DNA of 64,000 nt from Oligoflexia bacterium (GTDB lineage Bacteria > Bdellovibrionota_B > Oligoflexia > Oligoflexales > JAGOVF01): NCBI GenBank assembly GCA_030432875.1, contig JAUILP010000006.1, forward strand, positions 1-64,000, written 5' to 3'. Shown here one piece after another: positions 18,961 to 28,780 of this stretch. Positions within the stretch are counted from its first letter, which is position 1. Every line of letters starts with the position of its first letter. The position numbers were made by a program, and so were the translations under genes. The notes below the pieces were generated by a model, which was not told the DNA's origin, ran no database searches, and saw nothing but the letters and a program-made list of their open reading frames with translations.

Positions 18961-19953
18961 CTATGGTTTCACATATTTAAATGATTCTGGTGGAATGATA
19001 GCGAAAGAACTTAACCCAGGTTTTTTCCAATAAAGCTCTAAAGCAATTTCATAACGCGGACCTTGAAAATAATGAACGACGACTCTGTGTTTTCCTTTAT
19101 TTAAAAAAATGTTTTGACTTTGTTTCTTTATGGGATGATGTCTTCCGTCGTTATCCAGGACATTTGTGCCATCTAAATAGAGAATAGCGCCATCATCGCT
19201 TTGAATTTGAAATTGGTAGGAACCATCGGCGGGCACATCTAAGTCTGCTATGGCATCAAGAGCAAACCATTCAATAGTAGATAAAATTTCACCGGTTTTT
19301 CCTGAACTGGGAAACCCGTCGGTAAAGGTTCTCGGGCTCACAGCAAAATTGAGCATACAAAAGGAAGTTAAGAAACGGTTCTGGTTAAGAACTTCTGTCG
19401 TGTTGAAGTTTTCTTTGATAAACTTCAAGTTATTATAATTTAAAACCCCACCCCCTAAATTAATAATGTTGGCAACAAAATCGTCATTGACAACCGATTC
19501 ATAGGAGGCGATTTCATAGGCTTTAACAAAAATAGCTCGGCTATCCGGATTAACATTGTCGCACTGATAAAAAGTAGCCGAGGAGTTGCCCGTCCCGCCT
19601 GTCCCGGCCGTACTTGCATTTCCACCACTACCGGTATTAGCATTACTTTCGGAGCTTGCGTTATTTACTGTTCCGTCAGCGCTATTCGGTGGGTTTGTTG
19701 CGAAATCTGGAATATCAGTGTTAGCAGGCGCAACACCTTCATCGATAATCTCATTATCAATAGTATCTAAATCTCCGTTATCTGCTCCGGGGGGGATGAT
19801 AGGGGCGTCTGAAACTTCGGCATTAGCAGTTTCAGAGGTCTTACCCAGTTCTTCCGTAAACGCGGGACCTTGGTTTCCGCACGCTGATAAAACCATTAGG
19901 GTAAAAAAAATCGGGACGCTTAAGCCTTCAGGCCTAAATAGCTTATTTTTCAT
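18961..19953 (-). CDS. Lipoprotein with PA14-like domain
   Basis: 330 residues. The lipobox LSAC places lipidation at Cys25. Residues about 30-125 are a low-complexity Asp/Asn/Thr/Gly/Ser linker. The C-terminal part (about 215-325) has the PA14 pattern: PADGSYQFQIQSDDGAILYL, DGTNVLDNDGRH and GKHRVVVHYFQG...ELYW. PA14 domains bind carbohydrate or act as adhesion modules in secreted proteins. It stands alone, with its own terminator and a 420-bp upstream gap. A surface-exposed sugar-binding role is inference. Confidence 0.75.
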   Translation of the reverse strand: MKNKLFRPEGLSVPIFFTLMVLSACGNQGPAFTEELGKTSETANAEVSDAPIIPPGADNGDLDTIDNEIIDEGVAPANTDIPDFATNPPNSADGTVNNASSESNANTGSGGNASTAGTGGTGNSSATFYQCDNVNPDSRAIFVKAYEIASYESVVNDDFVANIINLGGGVLNYNNLKFIKENFNTTEVLNQNRFLTSFCMLNFAVSPRTFTDGFPSSGKTGEILSTIEWFALDAIADLDVPADGSYQFQIQSDDGAILYLDGTNVLDNDGRHHPIKKQSQNIFLNKGKHRVVVHYFQGPRYEIALELYWKKPGLSSFAIIPPESFKYVKP

Positions 19954-20377: not shown

Positions 20378-22684
20378 CTACAAAATTTTGACGAAGGCGC
20401 CGCTATTTATTTTTGTTATCATAAACGTAATTCTAGAGCTTTGCCCCTTCCCAAATTGATAATTTCTAAAATTTACGCTGACAAAATTTCCGGAATTTGG
20501 CATCTCCAGATTTCTATTAATAGGGCTCTTAAAAGATTGATACACTAAATATTCGCTAGATGAATGCAGGCTATATATATAATCCATCAAATGATCACCC
20601 GAAATATCCGCCAATATTTTCTCAATTTCAGCCAGGTCTATATTTGAATGCGCGATGTTGATAATCAAAATATCAGCAAATTTACCCCTATTAGTTTCGC
20701 CATTCTCATCCGAGTCATTAAGAGCAGCATCAGTAATTTCTTGAGTAATACTTCGCCAAGAAAATTCTGGCAATTTGGGAATAAAAAATTTGCCCTCGCG
20801 TACCGAATCAGAGAAATACCCACAGAGGGCGCCGTTTTTATTGCTGAAGACTTCATTGGGAGAAAAATAAAAACAAGCTCGGCGTTCCTCGATGCCTTTC
20901 ATATCCAAAAGCTGCGGTCGCTCGATAACATCCATTTCTAGCGTATCAGTAGTATTGTACTGCCAGCCTTTATTAGCCTCTGGCCCATAATTATTAATAT
21001 TTAAGGCCTGATTAAAAGTAAAATGGTCATAATATTTTTTCTGCTCAAAATTAGAATCAAGCATAACTAAAATTTTATGGCCCGAAGTATCAAATGCACC
21101 CAAAGACTCAGCTACTCCATTACCATTGGTGTCAAAGCTTTCTTTATCCAAATTTTCTTTAGAGATATCATTTTCTAAAAGGTTTTCGCTAAATATAATT
21201 TCATCATCAGAAACCACTAAGCTATTTTTTGAAAATACTTCAGCAAGAAAATTGTGCTCAATTTCTGACGAGGCTTTGAGCTTAAGTAGCTCCCTTTGGC
21301 TGTTTATTAGTAAACTTGAAACATGAAAAGCATTAGGTGCTAGACTATTAGGGCAGTTTAACTCCAGCGGTCCATTTGAGACAATTTTAAAGCTACGATT
21401 AGCGTAGCCAAATATCACTTGGCTAGACAGCGCTGATAAGAAACAAATTTCTTTTTTGTTCGGAGATTCTATTGCGCTAGGAATATAAATTTCTTCGCTC
21501 TTTAGGACATTATCGGTTATTTTTATGAGGTATGAATTATTGAACACAAAATTTGGGGAAAAATAAAAGACCATTCTGGCATTTTCTGAAATATTTATAG
21601 GTAGCTTTTTATTTATATTTTGTGCAGCCTTCAGGGAAGCACTGATAGTCATTTTTTGATAATCATCTTGCTGAAAATCAGTTAAATTCAAAATTTCTTC
21701 ATTAAACACCAGTTGATAATTCAAATTATAGTGATCGAGGAACCTAAAATACTCAAAACCATTTTTATAATAATCAGGATTTTCCGAACTAAAATTATTT
21801 TTCAAAAAATAATTTGCTGCTAAGAGAGCATTAAGTTCACGAACGGCATATGAGTCATCATTTTCGCTTCTTCCAAGGATATAGTAGATGATCTCATGCA
21901 TAATCAAGCCCGCTTTGTCTTGGTCTGATAATTTTTCAAATAGAGGTTTATTTATAAGTATAAATTTTTTTTGTGAGGTGAGAATTTTCGGCTTTTGTAG
22001 TGCTAGGGTTACTTTTTGGCAAGAAATCTTGTCACCGATCTGTTTGATATCATCGGTGTCAGGAAGCTCAAAACTGTCAATTGTCTCGGTATTGCTACCT
22101 AATAAAAATGCCTTATAGGTGTCGATGGCTTTTTTCCCGCGCACTGGGTCGAGGGTATACCACCTTTTAAGCATTATCCACATGTACTTGGTCCATACTC
22201 CATTGGGTAATGCGACATTTAGAAGATGATTTTTTTTGAGATTTTCATCAACCCAGTCATTGTTATCTTCTTCGTTTAGTTCGATTTGTAGACGCCAAAT
22301 TGACTGCGCTTCATAAAAATCTCTGAGCAAAACCTCGGGATGTTCGCTATCATCATTACAATAAAAACCTGAACCGCCATTGCCTATGTTGCTTCCACCT
22401 CCAGCGAGTAAAATCTCGGGACTTTCTTTTTGCTCGGTCTCTTTGGTGTTTTTTTGCGCAGATTGAGACGTCTCTTGTTCTGAACCATTAGGTCCTATTT
22501 GTGAAGATACAGATCCAGTAAAATTTTCTTCAATATTTTGGTTAAAATCAAGTTCGGACGGTTCAGAATTTTTTTCACTTTTTACTTTCTTGTGAGCTAT
22601 AGAATTGAAATCACTGCTACATGCCTGTAAAGAGATAATAGAATAAATAAAAATTCCAAATGTTTTATTTTTTAGTTTTAGCAT
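20378..22684 (-). CDS. Large lipoprotein with HEIIY motif
   Basis: 768-residue lipoprotein: signal sequence with lipobox LQAC (Cys22), then an acidic, Ser/Gln-rich linker to about residue 110. The region 115-290 is shared with the next gene upstream: a GFYC start, TLDPVRGKKAI, and DQDKAGLIMHEIIYYILG with His263-Glu264. The HExxY arrangement resembles half of a zincin site, but a second zinc His is not obvious. The long C-terminal part is unrecognised, with beta-type segments. It lies 61 nt after its paralogue at 22746 and likely shares one transcript with it and the TIGR02147 regulator. Function unknown; a surface protein is inferred. Confidence 0.7.
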   Translation of the reverse strand: MLKLKNKTFGIFIYSIISLQACSSDFNSIAHKKVKSEKNSEPSELDFNQNIEENFTGSVSSQIGPNGSEQETSQSAQKNTKETEQKESPEILLAGGGSNIGNGGSGFYCNDDSEHPEVLLRDFYEAQSIWRLQIELNEEDNNDWVDENLKKNHLLNVALPNGVWTKYMWIMLKRWYTLDPVRGKKAIDTYKAFLLGSNTETIDSFELPDTDDIKQIGDKISCQKVTLALQKPKILTSQKKFILINKPLFEKLSDQDKAGLIMHEIIYYILGRSENDDSYAVRELNALLAANYFLKNNFSSENPDYYKNGFEYFRFLDHYNLNYQLVFNEEILNLTDFQQDDYQKMTISASLKAAQNINKKLPINISENARMVFYFSPNFVFNNSYLIKITDNVLKSEEIYIPSAIESPNKKEICFLSALSSQVIFGYANRSFKIVSNGPLELNCPNSLAPNAFHVSSLLINSQRELLKLKASSEIEHNFLAEVFSKNSLVVSDDEIIFSENLLENDISKENLDKESFDTNGNGVAESLGAFDTSGHKILVMLDSNFEQKKYYDHFTFNQALNINNYGPEANKGWQYNTTDTLEMDVIERPQLLDMKGIEERRACFYFSPNEVFSNKNGALCGYFSDSVREGKFFIPKLPEFSWRSITQEITDAALNDSDENGETNRGKFADILIINIAHSNIDLAEIEKILADISGDHLMDYIYSLHSSSEYLVYQSFKSPINRNLEMPNSGNFVSVNFRNYQFGKGQSSRITFMITKINSGAFVKIL

Positions 22685-22745
22685 GAGTATTCACCCAAAT
22701 TTAATCAAAATTCAAAGAAAATTAGTGAACCGAAATATCCTAGAG

Positions 22746-25337
22746 CTATTTAGCCAGCTGCTCGCTTGCATGATGATTTAAAGTGTCCTGCAAAAATCTT
22801 TGCATATCCATTTGCCCTATAACTCTGATCATGTCTTCAATTTTGTCTTTCCCAAGTGTGGCATAAGACGTTATGACTTCGCCGCTTGGGAGTTTAATTC
22901 CCAACCTTATAAGGATCTTAAAGTATCTATTTTTACCTAACTCTGAGCTGTAATAGTCTCGGTAAAAAAGGTTGTCACTAAAGACTTTATCGTCCTCAGT
23001 TGTGCCGGATTTCCCTGAATTGCTCGTAGCCTTATTTGCTATAAGGATAAAATTCTGACTATTAAGGTAACTATGATCTTGCCAGTACCACTCTGCGTCA
23101 ATAATTTGTGTATAATCATTATTGGATAAGGGATTTAATACGTTTGCCTGTTCATTATTGAGAGTATTAAAGTTTAGCTCAATTACAGAAGCTTCAACGG
23201 TAAAGTCATCGATTGACTCCAGCAAAGACTTGTTTATACGGTATTCAATTGGAATGGCCACTTCAGAAAATTCCGGCAGTACTGGGCTAAAGGAATCATT
23301 GATTTCGGGATTTTGTACCGCCTTTAGACAAATTTGATTACCTAGGACATCTAAAAATCCAGGGTTATCGTAACTAAGGCAAATTGGTTTTTGTCGAAGA
23401 CCGATATAATCGATTAAGGTAAGCGTTCTAAAGCCTTCATTAATATTTATAGTAAACCCATTATAAATACGCTCATTTAGATCTAATGGTTGGGTTAATT
23501 TTTCTTCACTCAAACTCTCCTTGAGAAAAGAGGCAGAGACGAGAACAGTTTCATAATAAGGCGCCAATTCCCTCGTTCTAAGCGAAGAATTTATAAGGCT
23601 TCCGCTGGGATCCAAGGCAAACATGTCCGCAGGAGCTTGGTCGGAGTCTGCTCTATTGGATTTATATAATGCGTTAGTAATACTACGGCGATAAATTTTT
23701 CCTGAATCGAGGTCTTCTGTTTTAAGGTAAAGAGGAGACTGAGTACCTATAAGCCCCGAATCTTTGACTCTCACAAAAATAAGGTGATTATCCGTACTAT
23801 CTTCGAAAAAAAGCTCCTGAAAAAGTAGGTCATCTTTTTTAAAAAGCGAGGCTTTAGCCTCATTCTCTAAGCCCTTCAGCTGATCGGGTGTCCATAGTTT
23901 TGCTAGGGATTGTAATTCGCCACTGGCATAAAAACGCACAAAGTTTATGGTCTCCTTTCCTAAATCGCCGCCGCATATTAGCTTTAACCCCATAGGGGCT
24001 ATTAAATTTTGCAGGCGATTTTCAAGATCGACTGTTAGAGCCAGAGCCTTACCATTCACGCGGCATATAAGGTTTGGTTCTGCATAGGGGACAGAAATTC
24101 TCACGGGAAAATTATCAATATTGACCTCTTTATATAAAGTCGGTGTTTTGGCGACAGCCGTAGAATAGGGTGTATATTGAAAAATCACACGTGAAAATGC
24201 ATCGAATTTTAAATATTTTAAGCGTTCTTCTATATTAATATTTTCAGGTTTTATACTAAAGGAGGCTTCCACCTCGGAATTAAGAGATGGCAATGCTCTA
24301 AAATCAAAAAGTTCTGCCTCTCCCCACAGTGTCTTTATGGGAAGACTTAATTTTGCATCGTCCAAAATATTGAGATATAACATGAAGCCTTCATGAGGAG
24401 CTGAAGTCAATTGATTCGCAACGTTTTTTTTGAATTCATCCGCAGCCATTCCCAAAGATAGCTTTCTACTTAAGAAGGAATGAGAAATATTAGTTGATTG
24501 AAAAACATAATTAATGATTTCCCGAAAAATCAAAACCGCTTTATCATCGTCATTTAGAAGCGCGAAATACTCTTCATTAATCACAAGGGCGGCATCAAGA
24601 AAACCTCCTTTTTTAACATATTTTGCAATACTCATATTAAAGCACTTATCGTCTTTTTCGTTTGAAGAAATACTGCCAAACTCTTGGCCAGAAATATCCA
24701 GGTCATAAACAGACCGAGACGATAACTCGGAAATAATTGTATAAAAAAATAAAAGTGCTTTTTCTGCTCTAATGGGATCTAAAGCTGCCCAGCGACCAAG
24801 TAAAGTCAGGACTTTTTTTTGCCATACCTCGGTTAAGGAATTTTTAATCTTGCCATCATCCTGTAACAAACCTACTATTAATGCGATATTTGCTGGTTCT
24901 AAATCTACATTCAAATCAGAAAGACCAAAATCCACAGCCCTATCTAATAGAAAAGCTTTTTTTTGCCCATTTTCTTTATTGATACAATAACCTTCAAATT
25001 TGCCGCCCAAATCCTCATTAAGAGCAACATAGCCTTCAGATGCGGGGGCTGTTATCACTTTTTGTTCTTTTGTGCCCGTAAGAGGTATGCCATTCGCCTT
25101 ATCCTTAATATTTTCCGCGCTAGGTTTGGCTACAATATTTTCTTGGAGTGGCATCTTACTCTGTAGTGACTCAACTTCATTGACTTCCGGAATTAATTTT
25201 TCTTCCTCGGAGCTACTATCCTGAGATTCTCGTTCATTAAGGGAATTATCCTTTAAGGAGTTATTCTTTGCTTTATGGCACGAAAAAACTGCCGCTAAAG
25301 ATATTGATAAAAGCATTAGATTTAACTTTAGGCGCAT
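22746..25337 (-). CDS. Large lipoprotein, paralogue of the 20378 gene
   Basis: 863-residue lipoprotein with lipobox VFSC (Cys20), then an acidic linker to about residue 105. It shares blocks with the protein at 20378-22684: GYC near the start of the domain, AALDPIRAEKAL, a lone Cys block, and DDDKAVLIFREIINYV. Here the His of HEIIY is replaced by Arg272, so any catalytic or metal role of that His is lost. The rest is unrecognised. The stop codon abuts the upstream regulator gene arrangement: the ATG follows the regulator stop with no gap, so the two are surely cotranscribed. Confidence 0.7.
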   Translation of the reverse strand: MRLKLNLMLLSISLAAVFSCHKAKNNSLKDNSLNERESQDSSSEEEKLIPEVNEVESLQSKMPLQENIVAKPSAENIKDKANGIPLTGTKEQKVITAPASEGYVALNEDLGGKFEGYCINKENGQKKAFLLDRAVDFGLSDLNVDLEPANIALIVGLLQDDGKIKNSLTEVWQKKVLTLLGRWAALDPIRAEKALLFFYTIISELSSRSVYDLDISGQEFGSISSNEKDDKCFNMSIAKYVKKGGFLDAALVINEEYFALLNDDDKAVLIFREIINYVFQSTNISHSFLSRKLSLGMAADEFKKNVANQLTSAPHEGFMLYLNILDDAKLSLPIKTLWGEAELFDFRALPSLNSEVEASFSIKPENINIEERLKYLKFDAFSRVIFQYTPYSTAVAKTPTLYKEVNIDNFPVRISVPYAEPNLICRVNGKALALTVDLENRLQNLIAPMGLKLICGGDLGKETINFVRFYASGELQSLAKLWTPDQLKGLENEAKASLFKKDDLLFQELFFEDSTDNHLIFVRVKDSGLIGTQSPLYLKTEDLDSGKIYRRSITNALYKSNRADSDQAPADMFALDPSGSLINSSLRTRELAPYYETVLVSASFLKESLSEEKLTQPLDLNERIYNGFTININEGFRTLTLIDYIGLRQKPICLSYDNPGFLDVLGNQICLKAVQNPEINDSFSPVLPEFSEVAIPIEYRINKSLLESIDDFTVEASVIELNFNTLNNEQANVLNPLSNNDYTQIIDAEWYWQDHSYLNSQNFILIANKATSNSGKSGTTEDDKVFSDNLFYRDYYSSELGKNRYFKILIRLGIKLPSGEVITSYATLGKDKIEDMIRVIGQMDMQRFLQDTLNHHASEQLAK

Positions 25338-26201
25338 TTAAAAATCCTCGCAGATATCTGTATTTTGTTCATTGTCGGGATCTTCGGCCATTAAAAAGGA
25401 CTGAACATTTATCCTATAAACGCTGTCACAGCCAAGGGCTTCGCTATCACTGGAAATTTTCCACAGCTTGTGCACAAATTCTTGGGCAGCATTTTTGATA
25501 GCTTCGACCTGCGAATGATGAATGGCAATGGTAGCAGAATTGAAATCCCTAGATTCAAATGGGCTGGTAAGAAGCGCATTTTTTGCTGTTTCTATACTTT
25601 GCATGTGAATTTTTTGGATAGCCAAATTTCTTGTCGCACTGGAAAAGCTGATAGCCGTGTTAGTTTTTAAAAGTTTCCCCGCGACAACTTTTAGAAGTTT
25701 CATCTTAATCAGTCTTTTAATTGCCATTTCCGCTTCGAATTCGCTGATTTTCCCGCCTAAACATCGAGAAATCCAGGCATGATCCCAGCGAAATCCCTTC
25801 AGTTCTGTCAGTTCCAGGATGACAATGTGATACCAATTGCTGATGAACTCAAACTCTTCATTCTGCATTTCGTGGGCGACGTGAGAGATTTCGGAAATTT
25901 TGTCTTTTAATATTTTATTTTCAACGGCGCTTTGATTTGTTTCCTGGGCTAAGCGCAAATAAAGGATTCGGATGTCGGGTTCTGGTAGGGGTTGTCTTTC
26001 GATGAAGCGGTCAATAAAGCCCTTTTGAATGCGGCGCTGCCTTTTTAATAAATTACAAATATACCCTGAATTGCTATAACCCAGCTCAGTAGCCCAAGAC
26101 TTTAAAGTCAGTGAGCCACTCCCTTGTTTGCGAAAAGCCCAATAAGCTTCGAGAAACTCGTAGTTATTTTCAAAATTTCGAGGAAGAGGTAGCGTTCGCA
26201 T
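25338..26201 (-). CDS. TIGR02147-family regulatory protein
   Basis: 287 residues matching the TIGR02147 (DUF4423-like) family found mainly in Bdellovibrionota and Fibrobacteres. The N-terminal helix-turn-helix-like part reads SLTLKSWATELGYSNSGYIC then LLKRQRRIQKGF. The family core EFEFISNWYHIVILELTELK (about 117-136) and the following winged-helix-like block WISRCLGGKISEFEAEMAIK then RLIKMKLL are clear. The first gene of a unit with the two large lipoproteins, it diverges from the prolyl-oligopeptidase-like gene across a 371-bp gap. A role as transcriptional regulator of these lipoproteins is inference from position. Confidence 0.85.
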   Translation of the reverse strand: MRTLPLPRNFENNYEFLEAYWAFRKQGSGSLTLKSWATELGYSNSGYICNLLKRQRRIQKGFIDRFIERQPLPEPDIRILYLRLAQETNQSAVENKILKDKISEISHVAHEMQNEEFEFISNWYHIVILELTELKGFRWDHAWISRCLGGKISEFEAEMAIKRLIKMKLLKVVAGKLLKTNTAISFSSATRNLAIQKIHMQSIETAKNALLTSPFESRDFNSATIAIHHSQVEAIKNAAQEFVHKLWKISSDSEALGCDSVYRINVQSFLMAEDPDNEQNTDICEDF

Positions 26202-26247
26202 TTAAAAGCTCGGGTAAAAAATTTTTGCTGATCTTTAATTTAGACGC

Positions 26248-26276
26248 TAAGTATCACAGTAATAGAAAAAAGTCAA
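26248..26276 (-). promoter_or_regulatory. Putative promoter of the regulator-lipoprotein unit
   Basis: On the minus strand TTGACT (26271-26276) is separated by 17 nt from TACTTA (26248-26253). It is about 47 nt before the ATG at 26201. The -35 is good and the -10 mediocre. Confidence 0.4.
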
Positions 26277-26491
26277 GGAAACAACGCAAATATGCCGCAT
26301 AGACCTATGATTTTATTGTGATAGTTCCTCTAAAAAAACCACGATATTTTTGGGTAAAAAACGGAAATGATAAAAACGGCAAAAAGAGTTTGTAAGAATT
26401 TTTGAAGATCCGGGGTTTAACATGCCCCTCTTCTTATAACCCCATTTTTTTATAGAGATTTCCACAGAGCTAGCGAATGGACGCGGTAAAA

Positions 26492-26519
26492 TTGACGGGA
26501 GAAGTTTCATGGTGATATT
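26492..26519 (+). promoter_or_regulatory. Putative promoter of the prolyl-oligopeptidase-like gene
   Basis: TTGACG (26492-26497), 16-nt spacer, GATATT (26514-26519), about 53 nt before the ATG at 26573. The rest of the 371-bp divergent gap holds a short inverted repeat around 26412-26428 (GGGGTTTAACATGCCCC) and no gene. Confidence 0.4.
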
Positions 26520-26572
26520 GGTTGCCCGTCTTAGACAGAATTCTAACGTAATCTATTTGAAAGGAAAATAAA

Positions 26573-28780
26573 ATGCTCACAAAATTAAAGTTTATCACGA
26601 TAGCGCTTCTTTTTCAGGCTTTTACTGCGGGATTTGCGCTTTCCCAAGATACCAATACCGAATCACCACAAAAGCGCGCAAATGAGGAGTTTATTGAAAA
26701 ATATTTTAGTAGCAATAAACTGGACGAAGCCTATTCAACCTCCCTTCCCAGGGGATTCAATCATTTTGAAGGAAACTTTAATCACCAGAGAGTTTTCGAC
26801 GGATTTGTATATTATTTGGAAGGCACAAGTTTAAAAAGATTTCCTTTATCCTCCTGGGGTCTGGCTATTGATGGCGAGCGTAAAAATCTTTTAGAAACGG
26901 TCTATGATTTTGGCACAGATGAAAAAACACAGTTGATAGATTATGGATTTTCAGAAGAGCAAAAAATCCTATATGTTTTTTTAACCAACCAAACAAAGAA
27001 GAGCTTAATAAAACTAGATTTTTCTGATGAAAAGAGTCCCATAATTACCGCAGTGGATACGATTAGAAAAAATCTAGACACCCAAAATATTAAAAGTATT
27101 AAGTTCTTAAAAGACGATCAATGGCTTGTTTTTAAAGGTGACGTGCAAAACAAAAGCGATACAATTTATGATTTCAACAATGACTTAGATAAGGTAGTTG
27201 CAAAATTCACATCGCATGATTTTGCAATGACCGACGATGATAAAACGGCACCCGCATCTTTTGTTCCCGTGACTTATACTTCAGCTTCAGGAAAAAATCA
27301 TCTAATTGTAAGCAATGCTAACGTGAAAAGAACTACCAACAATTATTACTATTTTTCAAAAGATGATCACCATTTTTACCCTTTACCCGGTAGTGTTCAA
27401 CTTGTTTACGGTGTTGTTTCAGATTCGCATATTATTGCCCTTGCTCTATTGCCGCGAGAGGGCGACCCCAGTTTATTTGATAGTCATTTGATAGCCTTTC
27501 CCATCTCCAATATTTTGCAGCAGGCAAACACAGAGCCAGTGCAGTTTTTATTTTCTGAAGGCAGCAAGGGCAACGAACAAAAATATCTAAATTTCTATGA
27601 TATTAATGTATCGGGCGATTTAGTAACGTGGCTAGTCTTTGAGCATGGGATTTCCGGCGAACTCTATGTGGCAAAATCGATGGAAAACCCCAATGGAACA
27701 CGTTCCTTAGGTGTTGCTAACCTAATGCAGGAACAAATTTTTCCTAATGTGAAAACAAATATCGTGGCCAAACTCTTTAAGGATGGAGAAGTGTCAGACA
27801 TTAACTACAAAAGGGGTTTATTTGTTCGTGCCATTGAGCCGCACTCAAATCAAATTTTAGTCGAATCATTGAGTCTAGATATCGATTATTTTTTAATGAA
27901 GGTGAGGGTCGATGAGGTTGGTATCGGACCAGAGATAGTAAGTACTCCTTATAAGAGTTCAAACATTACTTTTGAAAAAAATGACGAGGAAGTTATCGTG
28001 ATGCGGATTGAAATCCCCACTGATTTGGGAACCTCGGATGCTTATCTTGTGATGGAAAAGAATAAATGGGATCAAATTCAAAATGAGCGCCTTAATGATG
28101 GGAGTTTTAATGGGCAAATTCCTACCATTATCGAAATGAACGGGATAGATCCATTGCGGCTACATCGACAAAAACAGCAATATTTTAGTAATTGGATTCA
28201 GCATGGTGGTGCTTATGTGCTTCTTCATGCCTCAGGCGGGCTTGAGCATGGGTTTAATTTTTCAAGTATGGGGAAATACGGCTCTGATATGACTCATAAT
28301 ATCCAGGAACTAGAAAATCTATACAATATTCTAGGTGATTTAGGCGTTAGCGAGCCCGCCAAAATAGGTGTTTCTGCCTCCGGTCGTTATGGAAATCTGC
28401 TTGGTGAATTTATTAATCAATTTTCACCCATAAAACCAAAGGCTTTGGTCGTGACAGACGGTTATCCGCAGAATTATAAAATCAACGATCTGGACAATCA
28501 AACAGCTGTTTTATTATTAGATACCGCAGGTTTTGCTACAGACTTTTATACCAGCGTTTATCAAGGCCTTAAGCCCTACAATGAAAATTTTTATAGCTTT
28601 AGTCGCTTGGTTGAACCGCAACCCAAAAGGGTACGTTTTCTTGCCGGTAGCATCCGTTTGGACAGTCTTGTGGAAAGCATTACTTTTTTTCAAATTGAAC
28701 TCGGTCTCACCTTTGAAACGTTTATAGATAAGGTTCAAAGTGGAAAATTGAAGTTCGTTAGCGAAGAACAAAATCCTTAG
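26573..28780 (+). CDS. Secreted prolyl-oligopeptidase-like protein (possible pseudoenzyme)
   Basis: 735 residues with a signal peptide (MLTKLKFITIALLF... cleavage near ALSQ). The first ~500 residues look like a repetitive beta-propeller region. The C-terminal part resembles the S9 alpha/beta-hydrolase domain: IIEMNGIDPLRLH, the GGAYVLLHASGGLEHGFNF block, and the nucleophile elbow GVSASGRYG (family GGSNGG or GxSAGG). The C-terminal block where S9 enzymes have the catalytic GH reads RFLAGSIRLDSL, so the His is not visible. AAAGGAAAA precedes the ATG. It may be a catalytically altered relative that binds peptides. It is not obviously in an operon. Confidence 0.7.
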   Translation: MLTKLKFITIALLFQAFTAGFALSQDTNTESPQKRANEEFIEKYFSSNKLDEAYSTSLPRGFNHFEGNFNHQRVFDGFVYYLEGTSLKRFPLSSWGLAIDGERKNLLETVYDFGTDEKTQLIDYGFSEEQKILYVFLTNQTKKSLIKLDFSDEKSPIITAVDTIRKNLDTQNIKSIKFLKDDQWLVFKGDVQNKSDTIYDFNNDLDKVVAKFTSHDFAMTDDDKTAPASFVPVTYTSASGKNHLIVSNANVKRTTNNYYYFSKDDHHFYPLPGSVQLVYGVVSDSHIIALALLPREGDPSLFDSHLIAFPISNILQQANTEPVQFLFSEGSKGNEQKYLNFYDINVSGDLVTWLVFEHGISGELYVAKSMENPNGTRSLGVANLMQEQIFPNVKTNIVAKLFKDGEVSDINYKRGLFVRAIEPHSNQILVESLSLDIDYFLMKVRVDEVGIGPEIVSTPYKSSNITFEKNDEEVIVMRIEIPTDLGTSDAYLVMEKNKWDQIQNERLNDGSFNGQIPTIIEMNGIDPLRLHRQKQQYFSNWIQHGGAYVLLHASGGLEHGFNFSSMGKYGSDMTHNIQELENLYNILGDLGVSEPAKIGVSASGRYGNLLGEFINQFSPIKPKALVVTDGYPQNYKINDLDNQTAVLLLDTAGFATDFYTSVYQGLKPYNENFYSFSRLVEPQPKRVRFLAGSIRLDSLVESITFFQIELGLTFETFIDKVQSGKLKFVSEEQNP

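Follow-up and report, generated by a model that had tools for sequence, protein, structure and literature searches.

A TIGR02147/DUF4423 regulator next to two predicted lipoproteins sharing an undescribed, likely gluzincin-derived HExIY domain

The window, by which we mean the whole stretch of DNA analysed (64,000 nucleotides, from an assembly of 4.0 Mb in 191 contigs), was found to carry an operon-like set of three genes on the minus strand, running from 26201 down to 20378. The first gene (25338-26201) encoded a 287-aa regulator of the TIGR02147/DUF4423 type, the second (22746-25337) an 863-aa predicted lipoprotein, and the third (20378-22684) a 768-aa predicted lipoprotein, with spacings of 0 nt and 61 nt, respectively. 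These coordinates were in agreement with a preliminary description of the locus, which had also spoken of a regulator "fused" in one unit with two lipoproteins; the genes are adjacent in an operon-like manner, and no gene fusion was present. Lipoprotein signals could be read in both proteins, with the predicted lipobox VFSC (Cys20) in the 863-aa protein and LQAC (Cys22) in the 768-aa protein. Both appeared to be exported according to the simple hydrophobicity rule by which export was called throughout, in keeping with the earlier idea of a surface system.

The two lipoproteins were revealed to be paralogous across approximately 300 aa (BLASTP E 1e-11, 22%), and the domain profile matched both of them, bearing out the common domain that had been described. 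The HMM envelopes covered residues 107-311 of the 863-aa protein (24405-25019, minus strand; 58.8 bits) and residues 93-302 of the 768-aa protein (21779-22408, minus strand). As described previously, His263 was found within an HEIIY motif of the 768-aa protein (residues 263-267; 21884-21898, minus strand) and Arg272 within the corresponding REIIN of the 863-aa protein (residues 272-276; 24510-24524, minus strand). Beyond this N-terminal domain, no convincing similarity was seen between the C-terminal halves. A short internal repeat (FYFSPNxVF...) was observed in the C-terminal half of the 768-aa protein (E 3e-4 between halves), which suggests the presence of repeated domains.

The intergenic stretch between the operon and a divergent gene (26202-26572) is the presumed control region. 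It contained TATCACARTAA as an inverted pair (26252-26262 and 26313-26323), with no further exact copy in the window; the pair is a candidate operator of the operon. A TTGACT hexamer also lay there on the minus strand (26271-26276). A search for known RNA elements found none. The divergent gene (26573-28780, plus strand) encoded a probably exported protein of 735 aa, which has GVSASGRYG as a GxSxxG-type motif and may be a serine hydrolase; it was considered as a fourth part of the system and dropped, since no relative was detected among 56 genomes. An anti-phage defence system was likewise rejected, as none of the four proteins matched a PADLOC model. A predicted lipoprotein with a PA14 domain (18961-19953, minus strand; Pfam E 2.6e-13) was encoded a short way downstream of the operon.

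The regulator was a clear member of both TIGR02147 (NCBIfam; E 2.1e-35, 122.5 bits vs. a cut-off of 50, residues 10-272) and DUF4423 (Pfam; E 4e-37, 128 bits vs. a cut-off of 30). Fifteen TIGR02147 genes were present in the assembly of the window, and up to approximately 48 TIGR02147/DUF4423 matches per genome were counted among the genomes examined. In the searched literature, which was covered in part, TIGR02147 did not appear, no function was stated for TIGR02147/DUF4423, and DUF4423 occurred only as a table entry, Bd3700 of Bdellovibrio bacteriovorus, a protein raised at the prey-exit stage (PMC12546842). Such a rise fits a role in timed programmes, although no HExIY partner could be assigned to Bd3700 itself.

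Searches of Pfam and NCBIfam with the lipoproteins and the domain alignments gave no model at cut-off, a PDB sequence search gave no relative, and HEXXY was not mentioned in the partially covered literature searched. Judged by sequence, the domain common to both lipoproteins is an undescribed family, and the system appears to be undescribed as well, as had been supposed. The hallmarks of this HExIY family were a VGNGGD segment, two conserved Cys residues (107/111 and 111/114), and then the HExIY motif. Among the members read, the Glu was kept in all 113 and the His in 112, the sole exception being the 863-aa protein of the window; position +4 was Tyr in 98 of the 113 and His in none. Further along, Ser occupied position +15 in 99 of 111 members and Arg position +19 in 109 of 111, and two Asp residues were also conserved (106/111 and 105/113). 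The 768-aa protein possessed all the family hallmarks including the Cys pair, HE, and Arg at +19, with VGNGG in the variant form IGNGG, while the 863-aa protein kept the Cys, Glu, Ser, and Arg residues and had lost GNGG, His, and Tyr. The pairing of an intact with a degenerate copy, which the preliminary description had built into the system, is peculiar to the locus of the window and not the rule. Members ranged from 161 to 1172 aa in length and had very different C-terminal parts. A sub-branch with HEWLW in place of HExIY, likewise adjoining TIGR02147 genes, was observed in two large genomes (L129:6812-8497 and L147:4298-5842).

To place the domain structurally, AlphaFold2 models were compared with known folds. 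The model of the window domain of the 768-aa protein (pTM 0.79) gave zincin-like matches among PDB and viral structures, which were weak and none of them significant. For a single-domain HExIY member (pLDDT 88, pTM 0.88), the top ten PDB matches were selecase, proabylysin, projannalysin, and BlaR1, all HExxH peptidases (minigluzincins or BlaR1), each at E 0.1-0.46 and none significant. The order of strands, HE helix, and next helix was similar between the HExIY domain and gluzincins, of which the minigluzincins were the best fold matches. Gluzincins have HExxH, however, whereas the HExIY domain has Tyr for the second His, and unlike the gluzincins compared, the HExIY proteins are predicted to be exported and carry the VGNGG segment and the conserved Cys pair. 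Against a TIGR02147-linked HExxH sister family, the HExIY profile reached a local P of 3.7e-6, with the second His of the sister family aligned to the Tyr. Weak matches to PF18894 (PhageMetallopep) over the HE helix were observed in 8 of 17 HExIY members (best E 1.8e-4); membership in this family was rejected, with the window domain scoring 13.8 bits vs. a cut-off of 23.7.

Neither the HExxH zinc motif nor a conserved Glu or Asp following the motif as a third zinc ligand was found in the HExIY family, Ser +15 and Arg +19 standing there instead. By strict membership, the domain falls outside the zinc peptidases, whose defining HExxH motif it lacks. The sequence and model comparisons make it likely that the domain descends from gluzincins and that its metal site has been altered. 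The domain may still work like a hydrolase despite the lost HExxH; lacking the second His and a recognised third ligand, it may also bind no zinc at all. The preliminary description had regarded the HEIIY copy as possibly metal-binding, but this metal site is a putative one, since the second His of HExxH was present in no member.

The distribution of the family was then considered. Of 56 relatives, 12 had members according to the domain profile, which also matched 17 loci in named Bdellovibrio-type records, a complete B. bacteriovorus genome among them. A wider search, of 119 genomes around B. bacteriovorus kdesi, located the family in 82 (1-13 copies each); on the side of the window, 12 of 46 sampled genomes had it. 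The system is not peculiar to the lineage of the window, where it was first proposed, but extends across Bdellovibrio-type bacteria and the phylum of the window. For linkage, 115 non-redundant members from sampled Bdellovibrio-like and related genomes were read with their flanks. The preliminary description had called for a profile search with gene neighbourhoods and named a lack of recurrent linkage as the outcome that would speak against the proposal. This outcome did not occur: a TIGR02147 gene was close to 102 of the 115 members, or to 100 of 113 when L129 and L147, which were found via their regulators, are left aside. For 62 of the 115, the regulator was the next gene upstream in the same orientation, with a modal spacing of -4 nt (start/stop overlap). 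For 16, including the 768-aa gene of the window, it lay two genes upstream, for 15 it was divergent, and for 9 it was directly downstream. The remaining 13 members had no close regulator, several of them having short flanks. In the two-genes-upstream cases inspected, that of the window aside, the intervening gene encoded a small predicted lipoprotein. A three-gene operon in Bdellovibrio-type genomes (L073, L075, L076, L226, L230, and similar loci) had the order TIGR02147 regulator, small lipoprotein of approximately 225 aa with no Pfam match, and HExIY protein of approximately 205 aa; at L226 the last of these is a single-domain protein of 206 aa from B. bacteriovorus kdesi.

In B. bacteriovorus kdesi, all five HExIY members were paired with TIGR02147 genes, of which this genome has approximately 14. 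The assembly of the window contained two further TIGR02147 genes immediately before giant lipoproteins, namely C142 (1064 aa, HEIIY) and C149 (896 aa, HEILY). As a neighbour control, ORFs with HExx[HY] were counted around 57 regulators in six genomes and amounted to 20 of 109 adjoining the regulators vs. 12 of 478 farther off. The regulators themselves were sorted by partner: on a tree of 93 regulators, the HExIY label changed 10 times vs. 31.3 in shuffles, and none of 500 shuffles was as low, although the tree was built by FastTree and has many long branches, which leaves its details unsure. The regulators of the window, C149, C142, and G001 formed one starred group. This clustering by partner type and the recurrent linkage lend support to the earlier suggestion that the regulator is a dedicated one. 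Upstream of the three sister regulators (L024 for C142, L026 for C149, and L118 for G001), we found an operator-like palindrome, TATCCAnnnTGG, which was upstream of none of 19 other TIGR02147 genes tested, that of the window included. The TATCCAnnnTGG(ATA) sites had up to three TATCCA copies, and a TTGAC hexamer lay nearby in two of the three loci.

The explanation that we favour, with a probability of roughly 0.68, is that a dedicated and probably self-regulating TIGR02147 regulator and two exported zincin-derived lipoproteins, of which the 863-aa copy is degenerate, are encoded in one transcription unit. The three genes would be transcribed together, and the regulator, residing in the cytoplasm, would most likely bind its own promoter and govern operon expression. 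Both lipoproteins would be exported and anchored at the outer membrane or the surface. The ancestor of their domain was presumably a gluzincin-type zinc peptidase, whose first His and catalytic Glu would have been kept while the second His was replaced by Tyr, and the domain would now act outside the cytoplasm, being either a hydrolase with an altered site or a binding module that bears variable C-terminal parts. The functional copy is probably the 768-aa protein, either such a hydrolase or a protein binding peptides or the cell wall, and the 863-aa copy, without His and Tyr, is probably inactive at the site and probably serves only through its other parts. The lack of a significant fold match and the absence of the sister palindrome ahead of the regulator of the window count against this explanation. 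The recurrent pairing with exported proteins hints at the role of the little-studied TIGR02147 family.

Within this explanation, two versions of the role of the domain are contained. In one, which we hold as a tentative reading a little short of even odds, the domain is an active enzyme of a new type, in which His, Glu, Tyr, Ser (+15), Arg (+19), and the two conserved Asp residues form the working site, whether or not other ligands hold a metal there. The conservation of His, Glu, Arg, and both Asp residues across very divergent sequences, as a catalytic site shows, argues for this version; on the other hand, no known enzyme with such a residue set was found, the fold matches were not significant, and the HEXXY literature search was empty. 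In the other, put forward with equal reserve, it is a pseudo-enzyme in which the zincin fold is kept only for binding peptides, prey, or cell-wall ligands, or for presenting the variable C-terminal parts. The replacement of the second His in every HExIY member, the Ser found at +15 where the sister family has an invariant Asp, the great divergence of C-terminal parts and lengths, and the tolerated loss of His in the 863-aa copy are all consistent with this version. In pseudo-enzymes, however, the catalytic Glu or His is usually lost too, and both are almost invariant here. Either way, a site preserved nearly perfectly without the second zinc ligand represents an unusual outcome of zincin evolution, being either a new active site or that of a widespread exported pseudo-protease.

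The co-inheritance of regulator and exported protein, the frequent start/stop overlap of their genes, and the appearance of BlaR1 among the fold matches would also suit a sensing circuit, in which the exported protein is more than a mere target and feeds back to the regulator by a BlaR1-like logic. We consider this improbable, since the exported protein is predicted to have no membrane-spanning or cytoplasmic part besides its signal peptide, and therefore no direct path to a cytoplasmic regulator. A chance neighbourhood, or a general preference of TIGR02147 genes for exported neighbours, which made up 67% at distance 1 in the neighbour control with other exported kinds also common, is contradicted by the linkage over distant genomes and the partner-sorted regulator tree and can hardly be entertained.

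TIGR02147/DUF4423 entries come without partner or target, and the present analysis attaches to them a defined exported partner family, which lies beside the regulator in nearly nine of ten cases and offers a direct, testable assignment for a large regulator family; B. bacteriovorus, with its five pairs, is a laboratory predator. The HExxH sister family (alignment A4; L029:6059-7249, L115:4769-6088, L126:4794-5972, L152:6691-8019, L183, and L218-L224) comprises exported HELxH proteins, with HExxH in 13 of 13, an invariant Asp at +15, and a TIGR02147 neighbour in 12 of 13 members read. It resembles the HExIY family in the VGNGG mature start, the helix I.I....F......R..L..HE, and the TIGR02147 neighbour, and differs from it in the retained HExxH, the Asp at +15, and a barrel-like C-terminal part, which in most members ended in or near an aromatic residue. 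It is about an even chance that these branches belong to one undescribed superfamily of "VGNGG" proteins that Bdellovibrio-type bacteria export, with a neighbouring TIGR02147 regulator of its own for every branch, HExxH kept in some branches (one with a barrel-like end, one with Kelch propellers), and a strictly conserved HExIY in the most widespread one. If so, the role of TIGR02147/DUF4423 proteins would be the dedicated control of zincin-like proteins that are exported and plausibly directed at prey or the surroundings.

Exported HES[VA]HH proteins with VGNGGD, which have the VGNGG mature start too, were also linked to TIGR02147 genes (L128:4245-5972, L142:6821-8509, L151:6824-8716, and L130:6868-8667), and the one scanned, L128, contained Kelch repeats (Pfam). 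In the assembly of the window, several other TIGR02147 genes adjoined exported proteins in which HExxH is complete, namely HEIAH twice, HEIGH, HEFGH, and HELIH. For two HEIAH lipoproteins, at L031:5160-6818 and L036:7674-9410, the TIGR02147 gene was located downstream, not upstream, with an overlap of a few bases.
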